Of a stretch of DNA of 5,790 nt, positions 1,762-5,790 are shown in pieces. Origin of the DNA: a bacterium (GTDB lineage Bacteria; Blakebacterota; Blakebacteria; Blakebacterales; Blakebacteraceae); the NCBI GenBank assembly GCA_025774205.1, contig JALGWK010000265.1, positions 1 through 5,790 of the forward strand, written 5' to 3'. Made by a program: the position numbers and the translations under genes. The notes beneath the pieces are model-generated. The model ran no database searches, was not told where the DNA came from, and was given only the letters and a program-made list of their open reading frames with translations. Every line of letters starts with the position of its first letter. Position 1 is the stretch's first letter.

Positions 1762-4280
1762 TCAATAATCAGAGCCCCCGCTCCAGACGAAATCGCCCCG
1801 CTCCATGCTCCAGTCGGGGCCGAAAAACCCGATCCCCCGGATGCCGTCGGAACCGTCCCGAAGCATGTCGGCCGAGAAGATCAGCAGGTCGGGGAAGCCC
1901 GCCCCCGAGATGAAGTACTGACCGGGTCCGGCCGCGATCCATCCCGCACTGCCGGTCCAGGCCACCGCACCGACCGAAGCCGTTGCGCTTTCCGGTCGGG
2001 GCCGGATGAAACAACACCCCAGATCTTCGCCCCGGAACCGGTGGTCACCGGCTGTGATCTCGCCCCGTTCAACCCGAACCGGGCCGTCACCCAGCAGGGC
2101 CCGCCAGTGGGCATTGGTATCAGCGTTGCCGTAGAGCACCACGTTGCGATCCGGCTCGAGCTCCGGATCGAAGTCGGTGTCGGCGACCACGTCGAAAGAG
2201 CCGTTGCCGCGGTACCAGAACATCTCGGCGTCGAAGCGGGCCTTTGCGTAGCAGGCCGCGTCCTCCTTCCGGTTCCCCCGGGTTCCGTAGACCAGCACCG
2301 CCCGGTTCCTGAATGCATCCTTGAAGGTGCCGCTGCGTTCAGGGTTCTTCAGACCGGCCGGAAGCGAGGGGATCACCTGCCACGATCCCGCCGACTGTTC
2401 CAGCCAGATCCGATCCCCCGGATCGACCTCGCCTAGATTCACCACGCTGCTGTCGAGGGTGACCGTGACCGCCTCCCCGGGATCGATCGCGTGCAGCTCG
2501 AGCGAGAGAACGGCCACGTTCTCGGTAGTGCCGGTGTAGGCGGTGCCCGGCTCGTCACGCTCGATCGTCACCCGGCTGAACTCGAGCGGATCACTCTGGG
2601 TCTGAACGGTCAGCCAGTGCGATCTGGCGGAGATACCGGGATCGGGGGTCACGAACTCGATCCGGCGCACGGTATCGTCATCAGGGCGCTCGTGCCAGCG
2701 GAAGAACTCGAACAGCGGCGGCCAGTCGACACACTCATCCCCCCACCAGTGGCCGGCGCCGGGGCGTTCGTAATAGCTGAAATCGGCGTGGAAATCCGAA
2801 AGCAGTTCCCGCATGAATCGTGCCTGGGTCACCGGCACGTTGTTGTCCGCCTCACCGTGGAGGATGTAGACACCGTGATGCAGGTAGTTGCGGGCCATTT
2901 CGACGGTGTCGCTGGCATGCCCGGCCCGGGCGAGCATGGCTTCGGCCGGGGTCGGATCCTCCCAGGTCGGCCCCCCGCCGTAGGAGGAGAAGCTGTGCCA
3001 GCCGGCGCTCGGGCCGATGGCGGCCCACCGGTCGGGATAGAGCACGCCGAGGTGCCAGGTCCCGTGGCCGCCCATCGAGTGTCCGGTGAGGTAGGTATGG
3101 GCCGGATCGGTTCCGAAGAGACGTTCGGCCTCGGCCAGCACCTCGAGGGCATCGAGACGGCCCCAGTCCTCCCAGTCGAAGCCGTTGCGGCCACGACCCA
3201 TCCCCACGACTTCGGATCGTAGGCCCGGGCCTGCCCGACCGCCTCAACCCCGGCGCCGTGCACGGAGAGGAAGAGGGCCGGTTTACCTGCCTCTCCGACC
3301 GTTTCCTCCCCTGTCCAGGGTGACACGCCGAAGTACTGCACGCTGCCGTCGATATCGCTGATGAAGGTGCGGGAGTGATGGGCATCGGGTGGCACCGCCT
3401 GAAGGGTTATGGTCAGCGGAGGGATCTCATGGGAGTTCCCGCCTTCCTGCCAGCGCCCACGCAGGGTGACCTCCACCGGTCCTGCTTCCCGCGGACGTTC
3501 GAGCCTGAGCGGTACGGCCAGCTTGCGGGTCATCAGCGGCGGCACTGCTCCGGTCCAGGCCGTTACCGCGTGCCCTGATCCATCCTGCCAGCTGATTTCG
3601 ATCTGGTCCACCCGGTCAGGGGTGGTGTTCACGAGGCGCAGGCCCGCCCAGACAGGTCCCTCTTCCCCGATCACCAGGTCAGGCAGGGTCAGGTCGGTAT
3701 CGGTAAAGAAGAGCGGCGCCGGCGGTTCGAAGAGGCGGGCCCGGAGTCGGCCCCGCTCGACCCGGAAGAGGAAGGTGTTGCGGCCCTGTTCGAGCCGGAC
3801 CGGGTGTCTGACCCAGTCATAGCCGTACTTCTCCCCACCCCGCGGCTCCCCGTTGACGTAGACGACGTAGTGTCCCGAGACATCCAGGACCATCGTTCGG
3901 GCGACCTCGGATTCCACCACGCACCAGAGATAGCCGCCCCGCAGTGAACGGTGCTGGATCCAGCCCTCATCGTCGGCTTCCGCGGCTGACCAGGCCTGTT
4001 CCCGACCGCGTGGGTCGGAACCGATCAGCAGACCGTCGACCGGCTCTTCGAACTCAGCCGTGGCGAGCTGCCAGGCCAGCAGATCGGTATATACCGCCGA
4101 ACGCCCGTACGATCCGATGAGGCCGACCGCGAGCCCCGAGGTGAGGATCAGCTCAGTGGTCGCGGCATCGAGCTGGTTTACCGGAGCCTGTCGATCAGTC
4201 GGAGGTTGTGCCCGGTGGGTAGCGGGTCGGAGCGGGAGCAGCAGCAACAGGAGTGCGAGAACGGAGCGGGATACGGACAC
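1762..4280 (-). pseudogene. Secreted prolyl-oligopeptidase-type alpha/beta hydrolase, frameshifted
   Basis: About 839 codons in two frames joined near 3187. The likely start is the GTG at 4280, because GGAG precedes it by 8 bases and the next codons give a signal peptide (VSVSRSVLALLLLLLPLRP, then ...THRA|Q around residue 24). An upstream TTG at 4313 overlaps the ettA stop and is less likely. Residues ~25-220 look like a beta-sandwich module ('HYVVYVNGEPRGGEKYGYDW'). The catalytic domain follows, with nucleophile motif GHSMGG (Ser codon 3078-3076), acid in HGEADNNVP (Asp codon 2847-2845) and His in GAGHWWG (2751-2749). The C-terminal beta-rich part keeps 'DTDFDPELEPDRNVVLYGNA', typical of the large secreted members of Planctomycetes and relatives (from memory). 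The first frame ends properly at 'DPKSWGWVVAAT' and the second begins at 'GFDWEDWGRLDALEVL'. A missing 3n+1 bases at 3184-3192 explains the break. All catalytic residues survive, so the lesion is recent or a sequencing error. The true substrate (peptide or ester) is unknown. Confidence 0.85.
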
Positions 4281-4309
4281 GAAGGGTTCTCCATCAGCGG
4301 GTGAATCTC

Positions 4310-4432
4310 TCAATCACGGCTCGGGGGCCTGTACCTGATCCGGTGCGGCCGGTCCGGTTCGGCCCCGAGTCGGCGTCGCTGATCCTCATCGTACTCACGG
4401 CAGTTCCCCTCGTACCAGACCATACGGCTCTC
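4310..4432 (-). pseudogene. ettA: ettA (ABC-F energy-dependent translational throttle) C-terminal stump
   Basis: Forty codons and a TGA stop. The frame reads ESRMVWYEGNCREYDEDQ, then RRRLGAEPDRPHRIRYR to the end. This is the conserved tail of EttA, in which a strand (VxWFEGN) is followed by the basic helix EYEEDKKRRLG and the end PHRIRY. EttA is a ribosome-associated ABC-F ATPase of about 555 residues, so over 90% is missing. Upstream of codon GAG at 4432 the same frame runs straight into a stop (TAA at 4444-4442) inside 5S rRNA sequence, so the loss is a sharp joint and not gradual decay. The stop is only 29 bases before the hydrolase GTG, which suggests that ettA and the hydrolase were once neighbours. 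No start codon or promoter is associated with the stump. The family assignment rests on motif recall. Confidence 0.75.
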
Positions 4433-4515
4433 CCGGGGACGTTAATCCCGAGTACCATCGGCGCTGAAGGGCTTGACGACCGCGTTCGGAATGGGGGTGG
4501 AATACAAACCCCCTT
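4428..4515 (-). rRNA. 5S rRNA core fragment, both ends missing
   Basis: Read on the minus strand this stretch matches the central part of bacterial 5S rRNA. It has the loop C region CCCCCATTCCGAAC (about 4497-4484), then CGGTCGTCAAG, then the very conserved CAGCGCCGATGGTACT (about 4466-4451), a helix IV hairpin CGGGATTAACGTCCCCG, and the loop E strand GGGAGAG (4434-4428). An intact 5S would continue with TAGG and about 15 more bases to close helix I; instead ettA coding sequence starts. At the other end the helix II 5' strand begins only at AAGGGG, where a normal molecule would need AGCGAAGGG and about 15 bases before that; instead methyltransferase sequence is present. About 86 of ~117 bases remain. 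It lacks helix I completely, so it cannot fold or assemble as 5S rRNA. Confidence 0.8.
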
Positions 4516-4737
4516 GTTCGCGCCGACATCGAGGACAGCGCCTGACCCGGTGGCGATAAAGGCTTCGAGACAATCGGACATCCAGAACTCGCCGGGTGAG
4601 ATGAACCCGCCGTTCACCATGCCGTAGATCGTCGGTGAAACCAGCCTCATTCCCATGTAGTTGGATGTAACTTTCTTGAGACCGATCTGGGACAGGGCGA
4701 TGACGATCTCACGCTTCATGATCTGGAGAGCTCTCAC
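4507..4737 (-). pseudogene. FkbM-type SAM methyltransferase, N-terminal stump
   Basis: About 77 codons from a GTG at 4737 (GAGG 11 bases upstream), or 71 from the ATG at 4719, which has a poorer ribosome binding site. The sequence contains 'YGMVNGGFISPGEFWMSDCL' and then GAVLDVGANKGV. The latter is the glycine-rich motif I of Rossmann methyltransferases in its FkbM-family form (DVGAN.G), and the spacing from the N-terminus suits that family. FkbM enzymes O-methylate sugars or polyketides and often sit in surface polysaccharide clusters. The coding match stops at the codons AAG GGG GTT (4515-4507), where 5S rRNA sequence takes over. The rest of the Rossmann fold, about 150-180 residues, is absent, so no enzyme can be made. 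The reading frame stays open by chance through the 5S and out-of-frame ettA sequence to 4294, giving a 147-codon chimeric frame that should not be taken for a protein. A 10-bp palindrome GAGAGCTCTC lies at 4726-4735. Confidence 0.65.
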
Positions 4738-4949: not shown

Positions 4950-4981
4950 ATAAAAAGAAATCCCCTCCGAAGAGGGGGTTT
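4950..4981 (-). terminator. Strong leftward intrinsic terminator with UUCG loop
   Basis: Read on the minus strand, a ten-pair stem (AAACCCCCTC with GAGGGGATTT, one G-T wobble) is closed by the tetraloop TTCG and followed by CTTTTTATAG. The halves are 4981-4972 and 4967-4958. The T-rich tail is on the minus side; on the plus side the stem is followed by only TTTTGG, so it is weaker rightward. No leftward gene is seen to its right within the window apart from the 23S rRNA fragment, so its present client is not obvious. It also insulates the promoter that begins at 4981. Confidence 0.7.
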
Positions 4982-5010
4982 TGGAAAAATTGCCGGCGGT
5001 GTCCTATAAT
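4981..5010 (+). promoter_or_regulatory. Sigma70-type promoter for the gene at 5090
   Basis: A -35 hexamer TTGGAA (4981-4986) and a perfect -10 hexamer TATAAT (5005-5010) are separated by 18 bases. Transcription would start near 5017, leaving a ~73-base leader before the ATG at 5090. The -35 box abuts the leftward terminator hairpin. No operator repeat is evident in the spacer. Confidence 0.55.
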
Positions 5011-5089: not shown

Positions 5090-5401
5090 ATGACTCCTGA
5101 CGAACTCCGTGCCATCATCACCTGGCTCGAGGAGCGGGTCCTCCTCGGGTCGGCAGAGTCCGATCACCAGATCGTCATCACGTTCCTCTCCCCGACCGCT
5201 GACGAGATGATCGCAGATGGACTGAACTCCGGCGGGGCGAGACGTCTGCTCTCGGTCCCGTGGTGGGACGAGATGGTGACCGACATCATCGAGACACCTG
5301 ACCTGTGCGATCCCGACGAGCCGGCCGCCGAGGTCCTCGCGTTCGCCCGTGACGTGGTCTCCGAGTACATCCGGAAGCGGTTCCCGCTCGAGGAAGAGTA
5401 G
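5090..5401 (+). CDS. Hypothetical acidic 103-residue protein
   Basis: I do not recognise the family. The ATG at 5090 has AGGGA five bases upstream and a good promoter in front, which supports expression. The product is a small soluble protein rich in Asp and Glu with a long predicted N-terminal helix ([17 protein letters not shown]), a hydrophobic strand (HQIVITFLS), a second amphipathic stretch containing [15 protein letters not shown], and a C-terminal helix ([18 protein letters not shown]) ending in EEE. There is no signal peptide or membrane segment. The long open frame on the opposite strand (5413-4823) is an antisense shadow: it has no ribosome binding site and runs through the terminator. 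Just after its stop come the bases of a 23S rRNA fragment on the other strand, and no terminator is seen. Confidence 0.65.
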
Positions 5402-5430
5402 ACCGGCGGCCATACACCGATACTACTCCA

Positions 5431-5583
<153 letters not shown>

Positions 5584-5598
5584 GGATACAGATAGCAG

Positions 5599-5634
5599 TT
5601 GACGTATCAATGGTATCAGTTATAATGATACCAT
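5599..5634 (+). promoter_or_regulatory. Strong promoter overlapped by a 9-bp inverted-repeat operator
   Basis: TTGACG (5599-5604) and TATAAT (5621-5626), spaced by 16 bases, form a near-consensus sigma70 promoter. A perfect inverted repeat, ATGGTATCA (5610-5618) and TGATACCAT (5626-5634), with a 7-base centre covers the spacer, the -10 box and the start codon of the next gene. A repressor dimer bound here would block RNA polymerase. The expected start of transcription (about 5633) coincides with the ATG at 5633, so the mRNA would be leaderless or nearly so. An extra TATCA at 5605-5609 repeats part of the half-site. Confidence 0.7.
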
Positions 5635-5790
5635 GAATCCTGATGAGATCACCATGGCGTTCGATCGCTATCTGCTTGATCGAGGCATGACATTCAAGTG
5701 TGTGGCTGTCGGCGCAGCTGCACTGGGATTACTGGGGATCGTAACCCGGCATACCCGTGACCTGGATATCCTCGATCCCGAACTCCCCCG
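5633..5790 (+). CDS. Nucleotidyltransferase-like protein (DUF6036/AbiEii type), 5' part only
   Basis: The gene runs off the right edge; 52 codons are visible. It starts MNPDEITMAFDRYLLDRGM and continues with a hydrophobic strand and VGAAALGLLGIVTRHTRDLD. That is the pattern of a minimal nucleotidyltransferase fold: a small-residue motif G(G/A)xAL, then about a dozen residues later (R/K)xTxDxD, whose aspartates bind metal. Domains of this kind occur in AbiEii-like toxins and in DUF6036 proteins, often paired with a small DNA-binding partner. The start is either the ATG at 5633, directly at the predicted transcription start, or an internal ATG at 5654 with only a weak GAG before it. The inverted repeat over the promoter suggests autoregulation. 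The partner gene, if any, lies past the window. Family assignment is by motif only, since most of the protein is not visible. Confidence 0.65.
   Translation, partial: MNPDEITMAFDRYLLDRGMTFKCVAVGAAALGLLGIVTRHTRDLDILDPELP

Follow-up and report, generated by a model that had tools for sequence, protein, structure and literature searches.

The DNA analysed here, referred to as the window, is the whole of a 5,790 bp contig (C49) of the MAG G000, which comprises 3.09 Mb in 527 contigs (completeness 86%, contamination 4.8%). Its phylum was represented by only four genomes in the set searched, and its genus by one other, the MAG Meg19_1012_Bin_119 (G001). The window carries pieces of 23S and 5S rRNA genes, the 5S represented by two pieces, interspersed with an EttA stump, an open frame that lacks its own stop codon, an intact ORF and the start of a DUF6036-like gene. 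These pieces are real as sequence and occur in the contig in the order given in Table 1.

Table 1. Features of the 5,790 bp window, with the evidence for each
Feature	Position	Strand	Evidence
Prolyl-oligopeptidase/esterase-like gene, 3' of the ettA stump, frameshift near 3207	1762..4313	-	PF00326, PF00756; two frames
C-terminal stump of EttA (final 40 codons plus stop); GGGAGAG in common with the end of the 5S core	4310..4432	-	TIGR03719, PDB EttA, ettA on C362
5S rRNA core piece, ~70 nt, without 5' part and 3' end	4428..4497	-	Identity with congener 5S, BLASTN, sub-gathering Rfam score (17 bits)
Open frame with DVGANKG motif, no stop of its own, runs to the 5S piece	4498..4737	-	ORF, coding signal to ~4513
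3' end of 5S gene (TAGGACACCGCCGGC), then intrinsic rrn terminator	4950..5006	-	90% identity over 49 nt to G001 C175
Intact 103-aa ORF, no family, between 23S piece and 5S tail	5090..5401	+	ORF, coding signal
23S rRNA piece, 136-142 nt, includes sarcin-ricin loop; clear homology 5448-5583	5442..5583	-	RF02541 above gathering
Promoter-like TTGACG-16-TATAAT, then first part of a DUF6036-like nucleotidyltransferase gene that runs off the contig	5599..5790	+	Sequence; PF19502 E 0.0015

Pieces of 5S and 23S rRNA

The 5S core is identical to the 5S of G001 at 38 of 43 bases and matches intact 5S genes of other genomes in BLASTN with E values of ~1e-9 to 1e-10. Its local alignment score was 39, against a maximum of 15 among 374 control segments of the same contig, which at 46 nt each were shorter than the core. 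The Rfam 5S model (RF00001) scores the piece at 17 bits, below the gathering score of 38, with an E value of 0.66 against all families that alone is not significant; the match spans model positions 13-110 and its 5' part is poor. The piece does not constitute a full-length 5S above the gathering score, and the two strands of helix I are not both present and contiguous, the 3' strand lying apart at 5006-4990. Judged by its homology to the true 5S genes of relatives, however, it is 5S-derived despite the sub-threshold Rfam score, and no clear decay was seen in it. The original prediction had carried the 5S sequence on to 4515 and had proposed an Rfam search of 4400-4560, taking the absence of a 5S hit at 4428-4515 as refutation; judged in this way, the hit obtained is sub-threshold. 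A 5S piece is indeed present on the minus strand, but it is smaller than claimed, its homology beginning only at ~4497 with CCCATTCCGAAC. The preceding 20 nt (to 4515), including the AAGGGG at which the left joint had been placed, are no more similar to 5S than randomly taken segments of the contig; true 5S genes align well with one another across the equivalent region.

The 3' end of the 5S gene and its terminator, which the original prediction had overlooked, correspond to a sequence on contig C175 of G001 that directly continues the 5S core of that genome. In the window the core ends in GGGAGAG and the tail starts with TAGGAC, an exact continuation (GGGAGAG^TAGGAC); the tail is placed upstream of the core, from which the terminator and the methyltransferase-like stump separate it. 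From their sequence, core and tail resemble the portions of a single 5S gene, severed and exchanged in position. This is the only 5S 3' end with terminator found in the G000 bin. A dispersed repeat consisting of 5S and terminator was rejected, at most one copy per genome occurring in the phylum, and no viral contigs carrying the tail were found. An antisense 5S 5' end at 5402-5446 (CCGGCGGCCATA) was also discarded, as 63 of the 374 control segments score equally well. Separately, a short terminator-like repeat (CCCCCCGCGGATCTCTCCACAGGG) at 153-193 of the window recurs on contig C496 of the same bin and on G001 C175.

The 23S piece, overlooked as well, is 85% identical to the 23S of another phylum, and both of its ends break within conserved sequence. 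It lies in intergenic space, with the stop codon of the 103-aa ORF (5401) on one side and the promoter (5599-5626) on the other. At a sarcin-ricin-loop position occupied by A in 22 of 22 aligned sequences it has G, and the variant string was absent from all 289 other genomes; the number of unusual positions in the piece falls inside, or close to, the range that distant bacteria show. Decay of the 23S as proof of a real pseudogene was set aside, since a single striking position is not decisive. No second intact 5S or 23S was found in the G000 bin, although the family search also missed the 23S piece of the window itself.

The 103-aa ORF matches no Pfam or NCBIfam family and has no homologue in 59 other genomes. 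The DUF6036-like gene, whose match to PF19502 falls below the cut-off, has a 70% match in G001 (C298); a palindromic operator-like sequence (GGTATCAGTTATAATGATACC) lies over its -10 box (window 5599-5640), and the congener copy has a similar one (L031, ~5925). The frameshift that splits the prolyl-oligopeptidase/esterase-like gene (4313-1762) falls within 3200-3215 of the window.

The joints of the 5S core

At the right joint the ettA stump was borne out by matches to TIGR03719 (positions 515-550 of 552, E 1.1e-8) and to EttA chains in the PDB; full-length EttA with its two ATPase domains is absent there. An intact ettA, for which the original prediction had recommended a search of the same genome, is present on contig C362, and the stump is 78% identical to it at the nucleotide level. 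It also confirms the bases shared at the joint: the C362 gene reads GAGGGGGAGAGCAGGACGG, the G001 5S reads CCCCGGGAGAGTAGGACG, and around GGGAGAG, which fits both partners as proposed, 13 of 14 bases match between the two. Microhomology had been claimed at both joints; it holds at the right, where GGGAGAG belongs to 5S and ettA alike, but not at the left, where the AAGGGG region is not 5S-like. By our own estimate the probability of seven shared bases at the 5S/ettA joint is ~5e-4, making chance an unlikely source, and overlap-guided joining in silico would yield the same sharing. The stump differs from the C362 copy at 3, 8 and 17 sites in codon positions 1, 2 and 3, respectively. Such a third-position bias suggests that the stump comes from a relative's functional gene and not from a copy that has long been drifting; thus, it does not favour an ancient rearrangement.

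On the left, the coding signal of the open frame stops near 4513 without a stop codon. The FkbM-type assignment of this frame is unproven, as neither Pfam nor NCBIfam gave a family match, and with no homologue in 241 genomes, plasmids or IMG/VR a natural continuation of the stump could not be traced either. The DVGANKG motif alone suggests a methyltransferase. Only the N-terminal part up to that motif exists, and a match to the FkbM profile may therefore be impossible.

rRNA anomalies elsewhere in the genus

Wrongly joined rRNA occurs elsewhere in the same assembly. In the single 16S detected in G000 (C504, 7573-7590), CCTTACCCGG is joined directly to CAACGAGCG, so that ~110 nt are missing at a clean joint. 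This gap in the 16S of the bin includes one of the most conserved stretches of the molecule; the remainder is well conserved and scores 1,343 bits. No cell is known that could live with such a 16S as its only copy. The 16S on record for this lineage is probably wrong, and is unfit for phylogeny without a read check.

Similar to the 5S of the window, that of G001 is cut within its core and continues into HicAB-like genes. On C175 (276-764) a HicAB-like gene pair is followed, within a few nt of a stop codon, by the 3' half of the 5S and the terminator, and no 5' half is present. By comparison, in 23 control loci of other genomes, two of which repeat a genome, the 5S is complete or loses sequence only where a contig ends.

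A coding-frame scan of 44 G000 contigs (~330 kb, six of them read as N) revealed gene overlaps and a few frameshifts, and no fusion comparable to those of the window. A bin-wide excess of fused genes was thus not seen in this sample, and the anomalies are therefore specific to rRNA. The bin is scaffold-level and contains a 23-N gap, which indicates that a scaffolding step had occurred; the joints in the window contain no Ns.

Origin of the arrangement

We consider it probable (about 0.68) that the arrangement is an artefact of short-read metagenome assembly, mis-joined at collapsed rRNA. This reading is favoured because the only 16S of the bin lacks indispensable sequence while the rest of it is well conserved, because unrelated DNA precedes the only 5S tail and terminator where a living cell needs an intact 5S, and because the congener 5S is likewise cut in its core and joined to other genes, in contrast to the control loci. 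It is further favoured by the GGGAGAG^TAGGAC complementarity, which resembles one gene cut and swapped, by the confinement of the anomalies to rRNA in the 44-contig sample, and by the scaffold-level state of the bin. The conserved 5S, 23S and 16S cores, common to many species, would have collapsed in the assembly graph, and the 5S tail, the terminator and the downstream gene, which form the unique 3' flank of the operon, would then have been stitched, through the collapsed rRNA pieces, to unrelated contigs. This may have happened in the wrong order while contigs were scaffolded or gaps joined, a short chance overlap guiding one joint or more. De Bruijn joins require an overlap of ~20 bases or more. 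The overlap of seven bases falls short of this, which counts against an artefact; the reading has to presuppose joining during scaffolding or gap joining, or else chimeric reads. The exact joining step is inferred, as is the expectation that reads would not support the joints.

According to published work, k-mers shared across conserved rRNA regions confound assembly graphs (PMC7593591), and MAGs of this kind contain erroneous joins and misbinned rRNA on short scaffolds (PMC7111523, PMC5079060). IDBA-UD was the assembler for a related set of MAGs from marine sediment that bear Meg22 names, as stated of that set only (PMC9727166), and local assembly errors are suspected to be prominent with this assembler (PMC7111523).

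Two further observations weigh against an artefact. The 23S piece is placed neatly, with a stop codon on one side and a promoter on the other, and has the sarcin-ricin substitution; a decayed copy in the genome would account for this better than a working gene that had collapsed in assembly. The joints, moreover, are free of Ns. A possible, though in our judgement doubtful, alternative is that the contig is real and that microhomology-mediated events (template switching or end joining), together with a gene insertion, scrambled the end of an rrn operon in the cell. The products would be the 23S and 5S pieces, the displaced 5S tail with its terminator and the truncated neighbours. The GGGAGAG common to true 5S and ettA, the location of all rRNA pieces on one strand and their derivation from the 3' end of one operon are consistent with such events, as are the intergenic 23S piece that deviates at an otherwise invariant base, the frameshift in the adjoining serine-hydrolase gene and the lack of similar fusions elsewhere in the bin sample. 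However, the only 5S tail and terminator of the bin are found here, which would mean that the assembly lacks the working operon. Separate explanations would be required for the 16S deletion and the 5S joint of G001, the breaks lie within universally conserved rRNA, where assemblies break, and the 5S core is without clear decay. If the joints were true, they would show the end of a bacterial rrn operon decaying and capturing neighbouring genes.

The original prediction had left the choice between an assembly chimera, which we favour and find concentrated at rRNA, and a real double rearrangement in which structured rRNA, as DNA or cDNA, was captured as filler at a break. Capture as filler is disfavoured because the same contig holds the rrn terminator, which is no part of mature rRNA; the material is thus rrn-operon DNA.

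Chimeric DNA molecules formed before sequencing, by whole-genome amplification or as PCR chimeras, and assembled at low depth, are a very unlikely source. Amplification chemistry yields short-homology joints and deletions of the type seen in the seven-base 5S/ettA joint and in the 16S deletion, which has almost no homology. Such chimeras, however, should scatter genome-wide; the 44-contig sample shows none outside rRNA, and there is no sign that the sample was amplified. It is more improbable again that, in this genus, the 5S gene is the insertion site of a mobile element that pushes the 3' part of the gene aside. Integrative elements insert at tRNA genes with just this effect, toxin-antitoxin pairs are common cargo of such elements, and the 3' half of the G001 5S begins within a few nt of the stop codon of a HicAB-like gene. 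Neither an integrase nor a repeated att copy was seen, however, the break point differs between G000 and G001, and the 23S piece, the ettA stump and the 16S deletion would be left unexplained. We give hardly any credence to the notion that the order is real and inherited, the rrn end of a small candidate phylum being kept in separated and permuted pieces (split 5S and split 23S), a bacterial parallel to the discontinuous rRNA genes that some mitochondria have.

Mis-assembly at rRNA, the reading we prefer, resembles the assembly and scaffolding errors reported for short-read MAGs (Chen et al. 2020, PMC7111523; Anantharaman et al. 2016, PMC5079060), in which unrelated contigs are joined over short stretches and erroneous rRNA genes on short scaffolds count among the typical problems. 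Those errors were diagnosed by a lack of read support, whereas the present case is known from the assembled sequence. The collapse of rRNA in assembly graphs (phyloFlash, PMC7593591) also breaks and loses conserved 16S, 23S and 5S cores, but usually appears as fragmentation, whereas the pieces in the window are additionally joined to foreign sequence. Bacterial 5S genes and pseudogenes interrupted by other sequence have been described (Stepanov and Fox, PMC7812874), with inserts of 13-109 nt in a gene that is otherwise collinear; in the window the parts are swapped and lie ~450 nt from each other, separated by a terminator and a gene fragment. Compared with a regular rrn 3' end (23S-5S-terminator), the window has all three elements, on a single strand and with a terminator that agrees with the congener's, but the pieces are incomplete and out of order and have unrelated genes between them. 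If the arrangement is an artefact, fusions, truncated rRNAs and 'microhomology joints' beside rRNA in short-read MAGs need a read check before they are interpreted.

Two further elements were noted in the genomes compared. A group I intron (RF00028, 62.9 bits) lies in the 23S of another genome (G031, C11, 421-730) near the peptidyl-transferase/sarcin-ricin region, and G001 C175 carries at 2974-3390, away from detectable rRNA, a free-standing 138-aa ORF similar to LAGLIDADG homing endonucleases.
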